Below, one piece after another: positions 4,648 to 34,787 of a stretch of DNA of 48,912 nt (positions within the stretch are counted from its first letter, which is position 1; every line of letters starts with the position of its first letter). The notes below the pieces were generated by a model that saw only the letters and a program-made list of their open reading frames with translations, did no database searches and was not told the DNA's origin. The stretch lies in the NCBI RefSeq assembly GCF_900188425.1, contig NZ_FZON01000040.1, positions 1-48,912 on the forward strand, read 5' to 3'. Origin of the DNA: Antarctobacter heliothermus (lineage in GTDB: Bacteria; Pseudomonadota; Alphaproteobacteria; Rhodobacterales; Rhodobacteraceae). The position numbers and the translations under genes are program-made.

Positions 4648-5268
4648 ATGCCCCATGATCACGCCGACGATGCCCCGCCCCACAGCCTGTTGCCGCCTGA
4701 GCCTGCCTTGCGGGTCAAGGCGCTGGAGACCTTGTTGACCCGCAAGGGGCTGGTCGATCCGGCGGCGCTGGATGAGATCATCGAGACCTATGCCCACAGG
4801 ATCGGGCCGCGCAACGGGGCGGCGGTGGTGGCGCGCGCCTGGGTCGATCAGGGGTTTCGCGCGCGGTTGTTGAGCGATGCGACGGCGGCGGTGGCGGAGA
4901 TGGGATTCACCGGGCGGCAGGGCGAGCATATGGTGGCGGTCGAAAACACGCCGGCGCAGCACAACATGGTCGTGTGTACGCTGTGTTCCTGTTACCCGTG
5001 GCCGCTGCTGGGGATTCCGCCGGGGTGGTACAAATCCGACGCCTACCGGGCGCGGGCGGTGCGCGAGCCGCGCGCCGTTTTGGCAGAGTTTGGTGTGACC
5101 TTGCCAGAGGGGCAGCGGGTGCGGGTCTGGGATTCGACTGCCGAGGTGCGCTATCTGGTGCTGCCTATGCGCCCCGAGGGAACAAAGGCGCTGGATGAGG
5201 CGGCGCTGGCGGGCTTGATCCACCGCGACGCGATGATTGGCACTGCGCTGGTGGAACCGCCCGCATGA
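4648..5268 (+). CDS. nthA: Nitrile hydratase alpha subunit, cobalt type
   Basis: Catalytic subunit of nitrile hydratase, which hydrates nitriles to amides. The metal site C110-T-L-C113-S-C115 followed by [15 protein letters not shown] is unmistakable. In this family Thr after the first Cys marks low-spin cobalt enzymes, while Ser marks iron enzymes, so cobalt is predicted. The three Cys act as ligands, two of them normally oxidised to sulfinic and sulfenic acids. The 206-aa length is normal. ATG 4648 was chosen because the N-terminus [13 protein letters not shown] fits the family; the ribosome site (GGCAGGGCAAG) is weak. It overlaps the beta gene by ATGA at 5265-5268, so the two subunits are translationally coupled. 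Confidence 0.96.
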
Positions 5269-13349: not shown

Positions 13350-14285
13350 CTAGGGGGCGCCCAGTCCGGCGGGGCGGGCAACCGGGCGCAGGGTAAACGG
13401 ATCTGGACGGAAACCGGGGTCGCGCGCGACGGGACGCAGAGAGGATATGGGGGCCTGAGCTGTCGGCGGGCCACGCTCGGGGTCCGGGATCACGGGGTCC
13501 GGGATGGGGGCAGGATCAGGCTGTGGTGCGGGATCAGGCTGCGGCGCGGGTTCTGGTCGGACGTCAGGCGTGGCGTCAGGCAAAGGGCCGGGCAAAGGGG
13601 TGGGCAAAGGGTCGGGCGGTGAGGGGATCGGGTCAGCGACCGGCGCCACTGTCACCTCAGGCGTCACGACCTCTGGAACGACGACCTCCGGAACGACGGC
13701 CTCTGGAACGACGGCCTCTGGCAAGATGACCTCCGGCACCGAGAGCGCGGGCGGTGGCGGTGGAGCTGCGGGAGTTGTATCTACTTGCGGCATCACCCCG
13801 ATGGCGGGCGTGGCAAGGGCTGCGCCGGGGGCGCGGGATGTCTTGGGGGCGGTTCGCAGCGCGGCGCGCGCGGTCAACAGTTCGGTTGCGGCAAAGGGCG
13901 CGGGGCGCACCAGAGCGGCAGGGGCATCGCCCGCCACCACAGGGCGCGGACGCGGCGTGGCGTCGGGCACAGGCGGGGTCACAGGTGCGGCAGGCGTGAC
14001 AGGCGGCGGCGGGGCGTCGGCGCGGACCGGCGCTGCGGGCAACGCCCTTGGCGGGCTGGGCGCGTCCTCGGCCGGGGGCGCGGCAGGAGTGTCAGGCAAG
14101 TCGGTCTCTGGTGCGCGATCCCATGCAGCGATAAGGTCGCCTAGATCCGGTGTGACCGGCGACAAGGCCAGCGACGGGTCGGGCGGCTCTGTCCGGGGGC
14201 GGGAGATCACCGCAAGGATCGCCAGATGCACCGCCAGCGCCAGCAGCAGACAAATCAACGCCTCTATCAGTCGCGCGCGGGTCAC
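13350..14285 (-). CDS. TonB-like Pro-rich energy transducer without recognised C-terminal TonB domain
   Basis: A 311-aa protein with one N-terminal membrane helix (residues 8-27) containing a histidine at position 20 (LALAVHLAILAV), as in TonB where the helix His contacts ExbB/ExbD, followed by almost 280 residues of Pro/Ala-rich sequence expected to be extended in the periplasm. Residues 183-212 are six pentapeptides of the type VPE[AV]V; QPDPAPQPDPAPIPDP follows. No TonB C-terminal receptor-binding fold is visible; the end (LRPVARDPGFRPDPFTLRPVAR) is short and basic. It overlaps the second exbD by 4 bp and is last in an exbB-exbD-exbD-this operon, which supports a TonB/TolA-type role. What it contacts is unknown. 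Confidence 0.7.
   Translation of the reverse strand: MTRARLIEALICLLLALAVHLAILAVISRPRTEPPDPSLALSPVTPDLGDLIAAWDRAPETDLPDTPAAPPAEDAPSPPRALPAAPVRADAPPPPVTPAAPVTPPVPDATPRPRPVVAGDAPAALVRPAPFAATELLTARAALRTAPKTSRAPGAALATPAIGVMPQVDTTPAAPPPPPALSVPEVILPEAVVPEAVVPEVVVPEVVTPEVTVAPVADPIPSPPDPLPTPLPGPLPDATPDVRPEPAPQPDPAPQPDPAPIPDPVIPDPERGPPTAQAPISSLRPVARDPGFRPDPFTLRPVARPAGLGAP
13650..13739 (-). repeat. 15-bp in-gene tandem repeat coding for VPE[AV]V pentapeptides
   Basis: Six consecutive 15-bp units, imperfect at the ends and nearly identical in the middle (forward strand units such as CCTCTGGAACGACGG), encode VPEVI, LPEAV, VPEAV, VPEVV, VPEVV, TPEVT in the TonB-like protein. The unit is a multiple of three, so changes in copy number would keep the frame. 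Confidence 0.75.
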
Positions 14286-28386: not shown

Positions 28387-29523
28387 ATGGGCAAGCGCAA
28401 GCCTTTGCTGGTGATGGCGGCGGGCGGCACAGGTGGACACATGTTCCCTGCGCAGGCCCTTGCGGAAATCATGCTGGCGCGCGGTTGGCGGGTAAAGCTG
28501 TCGACGGACCAGCGCGGTGCGCGCTACACCGGCGCCTTTCCCGAGGGGGTCGAGATCGAAACAGTCGCCTCTGCCACCTTTGACCGCGGCGGGGTTCTGG
28601 CCAAGGCACTGGTGCCATTTCGGCTGGCCTCTGGTGTGATGTCGGCGATTTTCGGCATGCGGCGCGACCGGCCTGACGTGGTAGTGGGCTTTGGCGGCTA
28701 TCCCAGCGTGCCGGCGCTGACCGCCGCCTGGCTGATGAAGCTGCCGCGCATGATCCATGAACAGAACGGCGTCTTGGGCAAGGTGAACACCTGGTTTGCG
28801 TCCAAGGTCGACGTCATGGCCTGCGGCACATGGCCGACTGACCTGCCCGAAGGGGTTGAGGGCATCCACACCGGCAACCCGGTGCGCCTGGCGGTGCGGG
28901 AACGGGCGGGCGCGGGCTATATCGCGCCGGGTCCTTATCCGATGTCGATCCTTGTGATCGGCGGCTCTCAGGGGGCGCGGGCACTGTCGGACATTGTGCC
29001 GCCCGCCATTGCCGCCCTGCCGCTGGACATGGTCGGCAACCTGCGGGTCAGCCATCAGGCGCGGGACGAGGATGAGTTGCGCGTGGCGACCTATTACGCC
29101 GAACACGGGCTGGACGCGGATGTGCAGCCGTTCTTTCACGACGTGCCGGCGCGGATGAGCGAGGCGCAATTGGTGATCTCGCGCTCCGGGGCGTCCTCGG
29201 TGGCGGATATTGCGGTGATCGGACGACCTAGCATCCTGATCCCCTATCCGCACGCGACAGGCGATCACCAGATGGCCAATGCGCAGGCGCTGGTGGACGC
29301 GGGGGCAGCCATCCGCATCCCGGAAACCAAGCTGACAATCGAGACGCTGACAGAGACAATCCAGGCGGTTCTGAGCAACGAACAGGGCGCGATCCGGATG
29401 GTGCACGCGGCGCTGCGGGTGGGAAAACCCGAGGCGGCGGACCACTTGGCCGCGCTGGTCGAAGAACTGGCAGGCATAACAACAAACGATGAGGGCACGG
29501 CAGATGAAGGACTTGGGGATTGA
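28387..29523 (+). CDS. murG: UDP-GlcNAc:undecaprenyl-PP-MurNAc-pentapeptide GlcNAc transferase MurG
   Basis: Peripheral membrane glycosyltransferase (GT28) that turns lipid I into lipid II. 378 aa: N-terminal [18 protein letters not shown] with the glycine-rich loop, [12 protein letters not shown], then the second domain with [36 protein letters not shown] in two adjoining motifs, and HQMANAQ. Length is usual plus a short acidic tail. It follows ftsW after 100 bp and is 13 bp before the preferred murC start. Confidence 0.98.
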
Positions 29524-29536
29524 GCGGGGCGCTTGC

Positions 29537-30943
29537 ATGACCGGCGCGACAAAGCTGCCCGGCGATGTGGGCGCGATCCATTTCGTCGGGATTGGCGGGA
29601 TCGGCATGTCCGGTATCGCCGAGGTGCTGTTGAACCACGGCTATTCGGTTCAGGGCTCGGACCTGAAATCGACCAAGATCACGCAGCGGTTGGTGGATCT
29701 GGGCGCGCGGGTGTTCGAGGGGCAGGTGGCCTCGAACCTTGAGGGGGCCGAGGTTGTGGTGATCTCTTCGGCGATCAAGCCGGGCAACCCCGAACTGGAC
29801 GAGGCGCGCCGCCGCGGTCTGCCCGTCGTGCGCCGGGCGGAGATGCTGGCCGAACTCATGCGTCTGAAATCCAACGTCGCGGTGGCCGGAACGCATGGCA
29901 AGACGACAACCACGACGATGGTCGCCACGCTGCTGGACGCTGGTGAGTTTGACCCCACGGTGGTGAACGGCGGGATCATTCACGCCTATGGCTCCAACGC
30001 GCGGATGGGGCAGGGCGAGTGGATGGTCGTCGAGGCCGATGAGAGCGACGGCACCTTCAACCGCTTGCCCGCGACCATCGCCATTGTGACCAACATCGAC
30101 CCCGAGCATATGGAGCATTGGGGCACGATCGAGAACCTGCGCAACGGGTTCTATGATTTCGTGTCGAACATCCCCTTCTACGGTCTGGCAGTCTGTTGCA
30201 CTGATCACCCCGAGGTGCAGGCTTTGGTCGGTCGTGTGTCCGACCGCCGTGTGGTGACCTACGGATTCAACGCGCAGGCGGACGTGCGGGCGGTTGGGCT
30301 GACCTACAAGGGCGGCGTGGCGCATTTCGACGTGGTGTTCCAGCAGACGGGTGAGGTGATCGAGGGCATGACCCTGCCAATGCCGGGCGATCACAACGTG
30401 AGCAATGCTTTGTCGGCCATCGCGGTGGCGCGGCATCTGGGCATGTCGGGCGATGAGATCCGCAAGGCCTTGGCCGCATTTGGCGGGGTGAACCGGCGCT
30501 TCACCAAGGTGGGGGAGGTGAACGGCGTGACGATCATCGACGATTATGGCCACCACCCGGTGGAGATCGCCGCCGTTTTGAAAGCGGCGCGGCAGGCCAG
30601 CGAGGGGCGGGTGATCGCGGTGCATCAGCCGCATCGGTACAGCCGCCTGTCGCATCACTTTGAGGAATTCTGTTCCTGCTTCAACGAGGCGGATGTGGTG
30701 GCGATTGCCGAGGTGTTTGCCGCCGGTGAGGACCCCATTCCGGGGGCCACGCGCGATGACCTGGTGGCGGGGCTGGTGCGGCATGGCCATCGCCATGCGC
30801 GGGCGATCCGCGACGAGGACGATCTGGAGCGGTTGGTGCGTGAGCAGGCGCAGCCGGGGGATATGGTGGTCTGTCTGGGGGCGGGCACGATTTCGGCCTG
30901 GGCGAACGGATTGCCGGCGCGGCTGGAGGCGGTGCCGGGCTGA
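29537..30943 (+). CDS. murC: UDP-N-acetylmuramate:L-alanine ligase
   Basis: First amino-acid-adding enzyme of the stem peptide. 468 aa: [18 protein letters not shown] at the N-terminus, ATPase P-loop [25 protein letters not shown], and the C-terminal [10 protein letters not shown] and [14 protein letters not shown] chose ATG 29537, which gives the short family N-terminus [15 protein letters not shown] 29504, with GAGGG upstream and overlapping murG, is an alternative. The stop TGA lies in the loop of a perfect GCCGGGC/GCCCGGC hairpin (30934-30951). Confidence 0.97.
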
Positions 30944-30975: not shown

Positions 30976-31033
30976 TGTTCGGGGTATGTGAAATCAATGG
31001 GTTACAGAGACGGTTTTACGTTTCTTTAAGAAA

Positions 31034-31060
31034 TGGCCCCTTCGGGGGCTGTTTTGTTTT
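31034..31060 (+). terminator. Intrinsic terminator of the ftsW-murG-murC block
   Basis: GCCCC (31036-31040) and GGGGC (31045-31049) enclose a TTCG tetraloop closed by C-G, the very stable UUCG type, with two flanking wobble pairs, followed by TGTTTTGTTTT. Correct shape and T tract for Rho-independent termination about 100 nt after murC. Confidence 0.85.
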
Positions 31061-31079
31061 GGGGGGTGTGGGGGCGCTG

Positions 31080-31124
31080 CCCCCGGCCTTCGGCCTCCCC
31101 CGGGATATTTTTGGACAGAAGAAG
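31080..31124 (+). repeat. Second copy of the REP-like intergenic element
   Basis: CCCCCGGCCTTCGGCCT, CCCCCGGGATATTT and GGACAGAAGAAG, matching the element at 10588-10635 in the opposite orientation. GGCC TTC GGCC can fold. It lies just after the murC terminator and before the Ala-rich gene. Confidence 0.7.
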
Positions 31125-31179
31125 CTGGGGGGAGGGATAAGCCGTTGCGGTTTGGCTTGGCGGGGGCGAGAGTTGCGGG

Positions 31180-32835
31180 ATGAAGGCCAAAGACATCAAA
31201 AATCGAAAGACGCTGGAGGCGTGGCTGAAGACGCGGCCGCGAGAGGATGCGGTGGTGATCGCGCATCGCGCGATGCTGCGAGCTTTGCCGTTCTGGGGGG
31301 CGGCGATGGGGGAGGATTGGGCGCGGAAAGGTGATTTGACAGCTTTGCCGGTTTTGCGTTGTGGTTTGATATCGGCAGTTGCGAGCACCTTGCCAACTGC
31401 CGATATCAGTAGCGCCACCGCCACCGCCACCGCCGCCTACGCCGCCTCCTACGCCACCGCCGCCGTCGCCGCCTCCTACGCCGACGCCACCGCCGACGCC
31501 GCCGACGCCGACGCCGCCGCCGCCGCCGCCGCCTACGCCGCCTCCTACGCCGACGCCACCGCCGACGCCGCCGACGCCGACGCCGCCGCCGCCGCCGCCG
31601 CCTCCTACGCCGACGCCACCGCCACCGCCGACGCCTCCTACGCCGACGCCACCGCCACCGCCGACGCCTCCTACGCCGCCGCCTACGCCACCGCCGCCGT
31701 CGCCGACGCCGTCGCCGACGCCGTTCTGCTGGAAGCGGAGGGTGACGTGATGGGACAAGCCCTTTGGCCCGGAGCCACGCCCGATTGGTTCGTGGAGGGC
31801 GAGGTCAAGATGTTGGCACTGTGGGATACTGATCCAGTCGAACGTTGGGAGTTCTGGCGGCGCTGGTGGGCGGGGGCAAAGGCGGGCACGCCGATTGATC
31901 CGCAGTTGCAACTGGCCATCGTCGAAAGGATTGACGAGGAAACGTGGACAGACCCGGACAAGGTTGCAGCAGCGATTGCCAAGATCGAGCGGGATTTTGT
32001 TCCGCCATTGTCCGAGGCTGCCTTCAGCGATTTCAGTTTTGAGGACGTTCACAACTGGATGGTTCTGGCGGAGTTCGATGACGATCTGGACCATCTGCGC
32101 GACCCGGACGTCATCCGAGCCTTTTACGAAGACTGTGAGGACCTGCGCGACCAATTGCAGGATTTCACCGACTTTGCAGGCGACGCCGCAGAGGGGCGGA
32201 ACCGGCCTGTGCCAATGGTGCGCTCGGCGGACAAGTTGGGTCAGGAATTGCAGCGCTGCGAGGGTGCGTCCCGATTGCGGGCGCGTCGGTTTGTGCAACT
32301 GGGCCAATATGCCGAGTTGCATGCGGCGGTCGAAGTGGACCGCGCGGTGGTGGGCGAGACCAATGCGCGGATGCTGGACGACGCGCTGGATGCCTTTCGC
32401 GCTATTTGCCGCAAACATCTGGGGCCAGTGTTGCGGCGGATGGAACCGTTGGACCGGTTCGAATTGGGTGACAGCGATCCGGCGGAACTGGTGCGCGTGC
32501 TGAGCGTGACGGTCGATGCCTTGTCACAGGCGCAGGTACAGGGGTTGAAGCCGCTTTCGCCGGACGCACAGACCGCGTTGAAGGAGTTGGTCGAGGGGCT
32601 GGAAGACCTGAAGTCGCAACTGGCCGAAGCGCAATCGGACGAACGGCGGTCCTACCTCGCGAAACGCTTTGCGCGGGCTTATGCGGGCAGCGCGGCGACG
32701 GTCAAGCGGTTGACGGAGCGTATGGCCCCGGTGGCGCAAGGGGCCAGCAAGGGAGTGGACGGTGCGATCAAGAACCATGGGCGGTGGACCAAGATTGCAG
32801 AGATCCTTGACTGGCTATCCAGTTTTGTTTCGTGA
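31180..32835 (+). CDS. Uncharacterised protein with an expanded Ala-rich repeat tract
   Basis: A 551-aa protein of no known function that I place, from memory, in a group of Rhodobacteraceae hypothetical proteins with the same layout. Residues 1-75 are a normal N-terminal domain (KNRKTLEAWLKTRPREDAVV). Residues 76-182 are almost only Ala, Asp, Thr, Ser, Tyr and Val, written nearly wholly with codons one base away from GCC. Within it, 99-121 and 122-141 repeat SYADATADAADADAAAAAAA, and 142-152 and 153-163 repeat SYADATATADA. Then comes a Trp-rich block (LWPGATPDWF, WEFWRRWWAG, 195-232) and a long, mostly helical C-terminus with a likely coiled coil near 465-500. No signal or membrane helix. 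It begins a group of three non-canonical genes between murC and murB. Confidence 0.75.
   Translation: MKAKDIKNRKTLEAWLKTRPREDAVVIAHRAMLRALPFWGAAMGEDWARKGDLTALPVLRCGLISAVASTLPTADISSATATATAAYAASYATAAVAASYADATADAADADAAAAAAAYAASYADATADAADADAAAAAAASYADATATADASYADATATADASYAAAYATAAVADAVADAVLLEAEGDVMGQALWPGATPDWFVEGEVKMLALWDTDPVERWEFWRRWWAGAKAGTPIDPQLQLAIVERIDEETWTDPDKVAAAIAKIERDFVPPLSEAAFSDFSFEDVHNWMVLAEFDDDLDHLRDPDVIRAFYEDCEDLRDQLQDFTDFAGDAAEGRNRPVPMVRSADKLGQELQRCEGASRLRARRFVQLGQYAELHAAVEVDRAVVGETNARMLDDALDAFRAICRKHLGPVLRRMEPLDRFELGDSDPAELVRVLSVTVDALSQAQVQGLKPLSPDAQTALKELVEGLEDLKSQLAEAQSDERRSYLAKRFARAYAGSAATVKRLTERMAPVAQGASKGVDGAIKNHGRWTKIAEILDWLSSFVS
31405..31725 (+). repeat. GCC-type triplet tract with nested 60-69-bp and 33-bp repeats
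   Basis: The coding tract for residues 76-182 of the protein above is a low-complexity run of GCC with scattered GAC, ACC, TCC, TAC and GTC codons. Larger units: 31474-31542 repeats at 31543-31602 (69 and 60 bp), and 31603-31635 repeats at 31636-31668 (33 bp). All changes are multiples of three, so slippage would lengthen or shorten the protein without a frameshift. Confidence 0.85.
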
Positions 32836-32989
32836 GGAATTTAGCGCCCTATGGACAAATGCCTGCCTTTCCCGTCCTAAACCGCCCGCAAGCCGCCCTT
32901 TTCTGCAATTGCATCTATCGCAGGGCTTGCCTGATCGGCGTGACTGGCGCAAGCTAACCACACCTCTGGGGGGATACGGAGGGCAGACA

Positions 32990-33235
32990 ATGACCGTTTC
33001 GTTAATACTCGCCTGTGCTTGGGCCGTGCTGGCCAATGTGCTGGCGATGCTCCCGTCGCGGGACAACCATTGGACGCGCGCCTATGTGTTGATCGCGTTG
33101 GGCATTCCGCTTGTCGGGTTTGTCACCTATCAGAACGGTCCTTGGGTCGGGCTGTTTGTCCTGTTTGCCGGAATGAGCGTGTTGCGCTGGCCGCTGCGCT
33201 ATCTGTTTCGCTGGGTGCGGCAGACCGCAAGGTAA
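32990..33235 (+). CDS. DUF2484 family small membrane protein
   Basis: An 81-aa protein with two to three hydrophobic helices (SLILACAWAVLANVLAML; AYVLIALGIPLVGFV; VGLFVLFAGMSVL) and a basic C-terminus (RYLFRWVRQTAR). The pattern fits DUF2484, a family known mainly from Rhodobacterales dcw clusters near murB. Function unknown; location suggests a division or envelope role, as inference only. ATG 32990 is preceded by GGAGGG, 6 nt upstream. Confidence 0.75.
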   Translation: MTVSLILACAWAVLANVLAMLPSRDNHWTRAYVLIALGIPLVGFVTYQNGPWVGLFVLFAGMSVLRWPLRYLFRWVRQTAR

Positions 33236-33626: not shown

Positions 33627-34553
33627 ATGAGCAATTTTCCTACCCCGCGCGGACGGTTGACCCCGGACCGCCCGCTGAACGATCTGACATGGCTGCGCGT
33701 GGGCGGGCCTGCGGATTGGCTGTTTCAACCTGCCGATCTGGACGATTTGCGCGGGTTTCTGGAGGAGTTGCCCCGCGATGTGCCGGTGTTCCCGATGGGC
33801 GTCGGGTCCAACCTGATTGTGCGCGATGGCGGTATTCGGGCCTGCGTGATCCGGTTGGGGCGCGGGTTCAACGGCATCTCGGTGGATGGCGTTCGGGTGA
33901 CGGCGGGGGCGGCGGCGCTGGATGCGCATGTGGCCAAGCGTTCGGCAGAGGCGGGTGTTGATCTGACGTTTTTGCGCACCATTCCGGGCAGCATCGGCGG
34001 CGCGGTGCGGATGAACGCGGGCTGTTATGGCACCTATGTGGCGGATCATCTGGTCGAGGTGCGCGCGGTGACGCGGGGCGGCGATCTGGTGGTGATCCCG
34101 GCGGCGGAGTTGTCGTTACAGTACCGGCAAAGCGCGTTGCCAGAGGGCTGGGTGCTGGTGGAGGCGGTGTTTGAGGGTGTGCCGGGCGACCCGGAGGCGT
34201 TGGCCGCGCGGATGGATGCGCAATTGAAGAAGCGCGATGAGACGCAGCCGACCAAGGACCGCACCGCAGGCAGCACGTTCCGCAACCCTGCCGGGTTTTC
34301 CTCAACCGGGCAGGCGGATGACGTCCATGACCTGAAGGCGTGGAAGGTGATTGATGAGGCCGGGATGCGCGGCGCCGTGCAGGGCGGCGCGCAGATGTCG
34401 CCCAAGCATTCGAATTTTCTGGTGAACACCGGGGGCGCCACGGCGGCGGACCTCGAAGGGCTGGGCGAATCGGTGCGAAAAAAGGTTTTCCAACACAGCG
34501 GAATAGAGCTACACTGGGAAATCATGCGGGTCGGTGAACCGGACCGCGGCTAG
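33627..34553 (+). CDS. murB: UDP-N-acetylenolpyruvoylglucosamine reductase
   Basis: FAD enzyme that reduces UDP-GlcNAc-enolpyruvate to UDP-MurNAc with NADPH. 308 aa: [16 protein letters not shown] and the FAD-binding [20 protein letters not shown] area, [21 protein letters not shown], the catalytic-serine motif AGSTFRNP, and the late [19 protein letters not shown], of the short (type II) MurB form. Intact by length. It is followed by 258 bp without a gene, which hold a 26-bp tandem repeat before ddl. Confidence 0.97.
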
Positions 34554-34694
34554 GGCCACTGGTACGACAATAAAAACAGGGTCCGGCAACCACAGGCGGT
34601 TGTACAACAGATGGCGGCAGTGACCGCGCAAGACTTTGCGACAGGGTGTTGAGCCCCTGCGCGATCCATGGGGGTGTTTCCCCTTGGGACCGAA

Positions 34695-34787
34695 TGGGGG
34701 CACGGCCCTCTGAATAAGAATGGGGGCACGGCCCTCTGAATAAGAATGGGGGCACGGCCCTCTGAATAAGAATGGGGGCACGGCCCC
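34695..34787. repeat. 26-bp tandem repeat (3 full copies and a partial fourth) between murB and ddl
   Basis: Units begin at 34695, 34721 and 34747 and are identical; a partial fourth runs 34773-34787. Each begins TGGGGGCACGGCCCTC and ends TGAATAAGAA; GGGC ACG GCCC can form a small hairpin. The perfect copies suggest recent expansion. 26 is not a multiple of 3, so it is not a coding repeat. The rest of 34554-34811 holds a small hairpin CGCAA/TTGCG at about 34628-34641 and no gene. Confidence 0.93.

Follow-up and report, generated by a model that had tools for sequence, protein, structure and literature searches.

A hairpin and a GCC-rich codon array recur together in an uncatalogued gene family of Rhodobacteraceae

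The gene between murC and murB and its family

We analyzed a stretch of 48,912 nucleotides from Antarctobacter heliothermus (contig NZ_FZON01000040.1, hereafter the window), which carries on its forward strand an open reading frame (ORF) of 551 amino acids (31180 to 32835), open throughout, whose product combines a conserved N-terminal domain (N-domain), an alanine-rich array of C-ending codons, a tryptophan-rich block (W-block) and a variable C-terminus. At the start of the array lies a perfect hairpin, and comparison with relatives showed that, within this gene family, hairpin and array strongly tend to co-occur at one constant location. A preliminary description, made from the letters of the window alone, had placed the gene between murC and murB, and this place was confirmed (murC, upstream, 29489 to 30943; murB, downstream, 33627 to 34553; both on the forward strand and so named in that description). 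Both the hairpin and the recurrence of arrays across the family were outside its account.

The N-domain covers amino acids 1 to 73 (31180 to 31398; L..WL...PRE...A.RAALR.LP...LR..LISGVA, alignment A1). The array itself (31411 to 31722, forward strand) is an unbroken run of 104 C-ending codons; over the tract of amino acids 74 to 181 the third base is C in 106 of 108 codons and all 61 alanines are encoded by GCC, as expected from the earlier proposal of a GCC triplet origin, whereas in the rest of the gene third bases are G 212, C 106, T 71 and A 54 times and the preferred alanine codon is GCG. The nested duplications described before are present: from 31467, copies spaced 69 bp apart are identical over 68 bp, and from 31599, copies spaced 33 bp apart are identical over 47 bp, the latter built on the 11-residue unit SYADATATADA; Tandem Repeats Finder (TRF) gave periods of 33, 27 and 6, and the large residues show a spectral peak at 11.2, which bears out the 11-residue period for this array. 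Its score was 71.6. Of the 3986 open frames scored in 647,683 bases of this genome, the window among them, the runner-up reached 22.6, and at the loci of the relatives all 1033 ORFs outside the family stayed below the array cut-off of 24; the tract is therefore not a product of chance. The W-block (31714 to 32001), rightly pointed out as Trp-rich in the preliminary description, served as the source of the family profile, and the C-terminal part (32002 to 32832) is kept in a relative from Mameliella alba and is variable or exchanged across the family.

The Mameliella alba gene occupies the same murC-murB place with its frame intact, and its identity with the window's protein is 67% in the best tblastn segment, 79% in the part after the array and 72% over the alignment. 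The ratio of nonsynonymous to synonymous changes (dN/dS) was 0.110 for W-block plus C-terminus, at a dS of 1.45 that is near saturation, and 0.30 for the N-domain, compared to 0.069 for murC and 0.121 for murB. Loss of the frame in close relatives had been proposed as a sign of decay; the intact frame and low dN/dS indicate instead a gene under selection, and these substitution ratios show the protein outside the array to be under purifying selection.

With the W-block profile (A2), matches were found in 102 of 394 genomes sampled from the window's taxonomic family, one genome per species, in 101 of 393 sampled genera, about a quarter, and in 7 of 385 genomes of a class-wide sample, 3 of them from the same family (own genome included). 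Six weak places were left out (two in G179, the others in G069, G017:C92, G327:C51 and G194). Scanning 122 loci gave 122 family ORFs from 121 of them, L110 yielding none at 1e-5; a count of 224 family ORFs included nested frames and was not used. Members share a plan of N-domain (about 75 amino acids), spacer, W-block (WxFWxRWYxGxLxGxPxDWxLQ) and variable C-terminus: the N-domain hidden Markov model (HMM) matches 102 of 122 members, the spacer has a median of 83 amino acids in these 102, 28 copies hold an alanine array, and 35 of 118 C-termini contain a transmembrane (TM)-like stretch by a simple hydropathy cut-off.

Matching the terminal domains to known profiles, a check suggested by the preliminary description, gave no family from Pfam, NCBIfam, PHROGs or PADLOC that was shared by members above its curated cut-off or with a credible E-value; weak library matches occurred in only one or two of 26 members (the best, to one PHROG, at 3.6e-05 in 1 of 26). 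No credible relative of solved structure was found, tblastn of the part after the array against plasmids and phages gave no match, and IMG/VR scans with two single proteins gave no relative. The gene thus represents an uncatalogued protein family.

Two loci depart from this plan. In L192 (G777, same genus) the N-domain runs directly into a different C-terminus, W-block and spacer being absent, upstream of a DUF2484-like ORF, which we read as module exchange at a fixed place; in L153 (G083) one long frame appears to hold tandem N-domain/W-block units, and the same contig carries a separate copy.

Hairpin and codon array co-occur at a fixed place

The window's gene contains a single inverted repeat of at least 12 bp. 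Its left arm (31367 to 31381) and right arm (31394 to 31408), on the forward strand, are exact reverse complements of 15 nt, 100% complementary around a 12-nt loop (31382 to 31393). Folded as RNA the hairpin reaches -28.6 kcal/mol (z -8.5), and as DNA a z of -8.7; a search of 31000 to 32900 against Rfam listed one match, to a miRNA family at 23.2 bits against a gathering score of 137. Across the family, 19 of the 28 array members have an exact repeat of at least 12 bp at the 5' edge of the array, none has one at the 3' edge, and among stems of at least 13 bp the loop is exactly 12 nt in 21 of 23.

Pairing was counted in 76 of the 122 members, since 20 lack an N-domain match and 26 an aligned centre column. 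Counts were two-peaked, with all 13 pairs in 20 members, 12 in six and 9 in none, and the letters of the complementary arms vary from genome to genome. Taking no shift of the alignment, 70.2% of cells were paired in these 76 unselected members, compared to 57.1% when shuffled and 32 to 44% when slid, and the covariation score was 0.393 against 0.208 (sd 0.013) and 0.115 to 0.167, respectively; compensatory base changes at the hairpin thus exceed both controls. In an alignment of 25 members chosen for at least 12 pairs (A6; L147, a copy of L145, was left out), 14 of 15 pairs had changed on both sides, and its 98.7% of paired cells follow from the choice of members. Three members outside the 76 also carry hairpins, with a 17-bp stem in L143, a 20-bp stem and a 4-nt loop in L120, and a 9-bp stem in L190.

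We considered whether the array could have expanded like any low-complexity tract, with translation favouring codons that end in C, and whether chance could have produced the hairpin from conserved ISGV ... PTPEI residues, whose codons can indeed be complementary. However, the arms stay complementary where the encoded residues differ, from ISGV/PTPE to SSV/PTED, LPV/PTGS and PWV/PTHG, and random centres in the same genes gave mostly 4 to 6 pairs and reached 13 of 13 in 4 of 1520 draws. The array codons speak against it too: leucine is CTC or CTT in 17 of 18 array codons, whereas the rest of these genes use mostly CTG. We regard this explanation as very unlikely.

Members with few pairs still show traces of the structure. 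In A7, an alignment without shifts of 27 of the 44 low-pair members, each with at most 8 pairs (L149 and L127 count as array by one criterion), 59.8% of cells were paired compared to 35 to 45% when slid, so that these members look decayed from a shared hairpin. The Mameliella alba gene has kept much of the left arm and not the right one (8 of 13 pairs), and its folding z at this place is -0.66 for DNA and -1.3 for RNA.

In 648 kb of the window's genome, a covariance model of the hairpin (R2) matched nothing other than the hairpin of this gene. In the 394 genomes, scoring the best 15 candidates per genome under strict filters, 41 were matched at E<=0.01 and 36 of these at E<=2.1e-5; all 36 strong matches lie in this gene family (31 assigned by an N-domain beside the match, G095 by a W-block in the same frame and 4 by place), with none strong elsewhere in those genomes, and the remaining 5 are weak and in other genomes. 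Perfect hairpins of other kinds were seen in the window near 4718, 16432 and 44688, with arms of 13, 14 and 18 bp and loops of 16, 8 and 11. Counting arms of at least 13 bp with a loop of 4 to 20, the 648 kb hold 9, this gene's included, and a 12-nt loop occurs in no other.

Arrays and hairpins are coupled. Among the 76 members, the number of pairs (best of five codon shifts) correlated with the C-third fraction of the spacer (Spearman 0.82, p=2.6e-19), and a Fisher test of hairpin against array gave 26/3/3/44 (p=7e-14) with cut-offs set after the data were seen (at least 11 of 13 pairs for a hairpin; C-third of at least 0.65 and Ala of at least 0.33 for an array). In 24 of 26 rows with at least 12 pairs, one row being a copy, no more than 23 nt separate the hairpin from the start of the array, and on the W-block tree each trait changes 24 times.

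All 28 distinct arrays above the score lie 5' of the W-block. The array label changes 26 times on a tree of 119 W-blocks, which is poorly resolved, so gains and losses look alike. Two contigs, G370:C10 and G020:C25, stop inside the array just after the hairpin, indicating that arrays break assemblies. Vocabularies differ between members (SAAY, SAAR/SAD, FAADS, AAH, AAN, SYADATATADA and others), although some arrays have 6-codon words in common, up to 10 of them in L074 and L176. The earlier wording of a tract that had grown was not supported in the sense of an addition, as the spacer is equally long with and without an array (medians 83, n=25, and 84, n=77; p=0.60); the array therefore replaces an existing segment. 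In 102 members the Ala fraction of the spacer correlated with its C-third fraction at 0.87, while its length was uncorrelated.

Alanine is encoded by GCC in 1063 of 1135 cases within arrays, compared to GCG 590 and GCC 529 outside. Over the 1899 codons of all 28 arrays, differences from GCC number 608, 462 and 183 at positions 1, 2 and 3, and of 226 changes counted as tree-like codon steps, 56 (25%) fall on position 3, compared to 57% in control stretches taken from these genes. The variable codon of L190 and L189 always has the form NNT, beside GCC and TCC, suggesting that the third base is inherited from a founding unit while positions 1 and 2 change. In L190 all Leu, Arg and Gly codons of the array end in T, whereas outside CTT makes up 6 of 58, CGT 3 of 31 and GGT 3 of 26. 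Together with the leucine codons, this contrast of array and non-array codon use weakens codon preference as an explanation of the arrays.

The stem might alternatively serve in the mRNA, pausing the ribosome or protecting the message ahead of an alanine run and being selected where a pure array is translated. The stability of the RNA fold fits this, as does the position of the stem in the reading frame just 5' of the array, and of the 12 non-Watson-Crick cells in A6, 7 are G-U. On the other hand, G-U fills only 7 of 375 cells (5 of 375 are unpaired), a low number for an RNA helix that has long been selected, though the rows were chosen for Watson-Crick pairs; translation also leaves the third-base pattern unexplained, since the T-ending Leu, Arg and Gly codons of L190 are seldom used outside the array. 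An mRNA role seems to us unlikely.

A somewhat better, if still rather improbable, alternative is that both parts are neutral by-products, GCC slippage and quasipalindrome correction being everyday errors of replication at a single fragile site, whose functionless traces would coincide through a shared origin in fork stalling. Palindromes can be perfected by template switching in the absence of selection (PMC7202029), and GCC-rich low-complexity regions are common in prokaryotes, with GCC as their commonest alanine codon (PMC6821194). Against this stand the hairpin's single homologous position in 36 of 394 genomes with no strong match elsewhere in them, the nearly constant 12-nt loop, and the deficit of third-base changes, which needs selection or biased mutation.

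The arrays also invite comparison with diversity-generating retroelements (DGRs) or another trans-acting system, as in both cases variable codons are of the NNY kind (here NNC or NNT) and an inverted repeat adjoins the part of a protein gene that varies. In DGR targets the inverted repeat is described as lying just 3' of the initiation of mutagenic homology (IMH) (PMC12875486), whereas here, on the coding strand, the hairpin precedes the array on its 5' side. Searches with RVT_1 (PF00078, E<=0.001) found no reverse transcriptase in 7 of 12 genomes searched, 6 of them hairpin-bearing (G213, G116, G072, G295, G215 and G488, the last with a short array); the window's own genome has one, on another contig. 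As for a template repeat, among the 41 matches listed from a BLAST of 31330 to 31745 against its own genome only the window itself covers the hairpin, the other listed matches being partial array matches (best 40 of 181 candidates scored, in an assembly of 159 contigs). Each of the 16 arrays picked for purity uses only 4 to 8 codon types, and the module shows tandem duplication with this small vocabulary rather than adenine-directed, near-random NNY codons. Because no such enzyme was found in the six hairpin-bearing genomes and no second copy among the own-genome matches, we rejected identity with a DGR, and regard this largely refuted explanation as the most improbable of all.

At the protein level, large residues stand 3 or 4 apart in 219 gaps compared to 101 when shuffled, an aggregate period of 3.6 as expected on a helix, although this is evident singly in only some arrays. 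The earlier idea of a helical spacer or stalk between two domains is thus supported as a possibility, helix being predicted, whereas AlphaFold2 gave a mean predicted local distance difference test (pLDDT) of only 42. The likeness to ice-binding proteins was not supported: no credible relative of solved structure turned up, the 11-residue peak is found in this one of 28 arrays, and instead of an 11-residue repeat running through the helix, only part of the window's array repeats exactly.

Genomic place of the family

The 122 copies fall into 47 in the mur region, 45 beside genes that we take to be lepA and hisD, and 30 elsewhere, a label that requires one mur or lepA/hisD gene within the stretch. 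Near murC, the family gene follows a DUF2484-like ORF in some genomes and precedes it in others, and once, as a copy labelled mur, it comes after murB; in the window this small membrane-like ORF, presumably DUF2484-like, adjoins the slot at 32990 to 33235 on the forward strand. Among 20 genomes without the family, murC was found in 19, with the next known gene within 558 nt in 16 of these and a contig end in 1. In two such genomes (L198 and L210) an ORF of about 1.2 kb that by eye reads as permease-like fills the slot downstream of murC.

Five copies outside both main slots (L114, L122, L156, L158 and L179) have a common neighbouring gene cluster, perhaps a third slot, and GatB-family genes are among the neighbours of copies at other places. 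PADLOC matches were seen among 93 neighbours (of 130 listed), and of 10 neighbours traced, 2 matched ATPase-type models in our own reading; we claim no association of the family with defence. Two further tandem repeats lie in the window, a 26-bp unit (GAATGGGGGCACGGCCCTCTGAATAA) repeated 3.7 times with 100% identity between murB and the next mur-cluster gene (34692 to 34786), and a 15-bp unit (ACGACCTCTGGAACG) repeated about 4.5 times at 13666 to 13733.

In the PMC full-text literature, judged from titles and the starts of abstracts, we found no description of this gene or of a hairpin tied to a codon array, and no paper on DUF2484. The terms murB and murC do not occur in the text of a paper on the dcw cluster of R. 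sphaeroides (PMC5089854).

A candidate cis-acting module

We propose that hairpin and array form a two-part cis module within coding sequence, in which hairpin-promoted slippage and template switching would renew a helical spacer, a reading to which we give a probability of about 40%. The module would consist of a near-perfect DNA hairpin (arms of 13 to 20 bp, usually with a 12-nt loop) and, immediately after it, a triplet array made mostly of GCC. From the coupling of the two we infer all the mechanistic steps that follow. The hairpin would stall the replication fork, and the stall would lead to slippage and unequal exchange in the array, thereby renewing it, and to template switching between the arms, thereby keeping them perfect. 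At imperfect palindromes polymerases are known to change templates, which brings the palindromes closer to perfection (PMC7202029), so the arms would stay Watson-Crick paired with any letters. Selection would retain arrays that still give an alpha-helical spacer of roughly 80 to 110 residues, favouring polar or aromatic replacements of alanine and keeping mainly non-synonymous novelty. The product may be an accessory protein of the cytoplasm, largely helical (by eye, no signal is visible at the N-terminus), whose spacer would hold the N-domain away from W-block and tail. Once the hairpin is lost, renewal would stop and the array would decay, as the Mameliella alba gene may be read. A stronger version, in which the cis DNA hairpin continually renews the array beside it as a self-contained diversity generator free of reverse transcriptase, giving each lineage its own helix in a conserved protein, is tentative and more doubtful.

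Several results weigh against this proposal. Independent pairs on supported branches of the poorly resolved tree were 4:0, which is not significant (p 0.125). Six of the 76 members are discordant, with a hairpin and no full array in L133, L189 and L188 and an array with 8 to 10 of 13 pairs in L086, L119 and L127; moreover, the 17-bp hairpin of L143, outside the 76, has almost no array, and L149 has an impure array with 5 of 13 pairs and no hairpin. The deficit of third-base changes over all 28 arrays is modest when set against one third (56 of 226, p=0.003), and the near-freeze in 16 arrays picked for purity (320, 215 and 7 differences in 971 codons) partly results from the choice. The window's own array shows no 3.6 periodicity (p=0.83), the AlphaFold2 model of the window's and Mameliella alba proteins is unusable, and the G-U share of the non-Watson-Crick cells leaves room for an RNA role. 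Finally, the link of hairpin to slippage in this gene is a putative one, and the basis is sequence comparison with one genome per species.

Compared to known systems, the proposed module resembles quasipalindrome hotspots such as those of E. coli thyA and of lacZ reporters, where template switching perfects inverted repeats and would give arms that are Watson-Crick paired with any letters, but the present hairpin keeps one homologous position in different genera and is tied to a triplet array. Coding triplet repeats and contingency loci of bacteria are a familiar class that also has in-frame arrays able to change length in threes; in the present arrays, however, units diversify mainly at codon positions 1 and 2, spacer length is unrelated to the array, and there is a hairpin. 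That genes can contain perfect hairpins is illustrated by the mitochondrial genes of Nematomorpha, with perfect inverted repeats whose arms are both coding (PMC6649704); those palindromes are numerous and up to 284 bp long, whereas here a single short hairpin of fixed place and fixed loop adjoins a hypervariable array. The novelty thus lies in the coupled hairpin-array module, the array alone being of a known kind.

To our knowledge, bacteria reach hypervariable protein stretches by reverse transcriptases, invertases, cassette recombination or simple repeat slippage. Should the array prove to be renewed through the hairpin, the module would be a minimal cis-acting generator of diversity that could be moved to a laboratory host and measured there. 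Otherwise, the gene family would still be a strong case of base pairing that constrains two peptide segments together.
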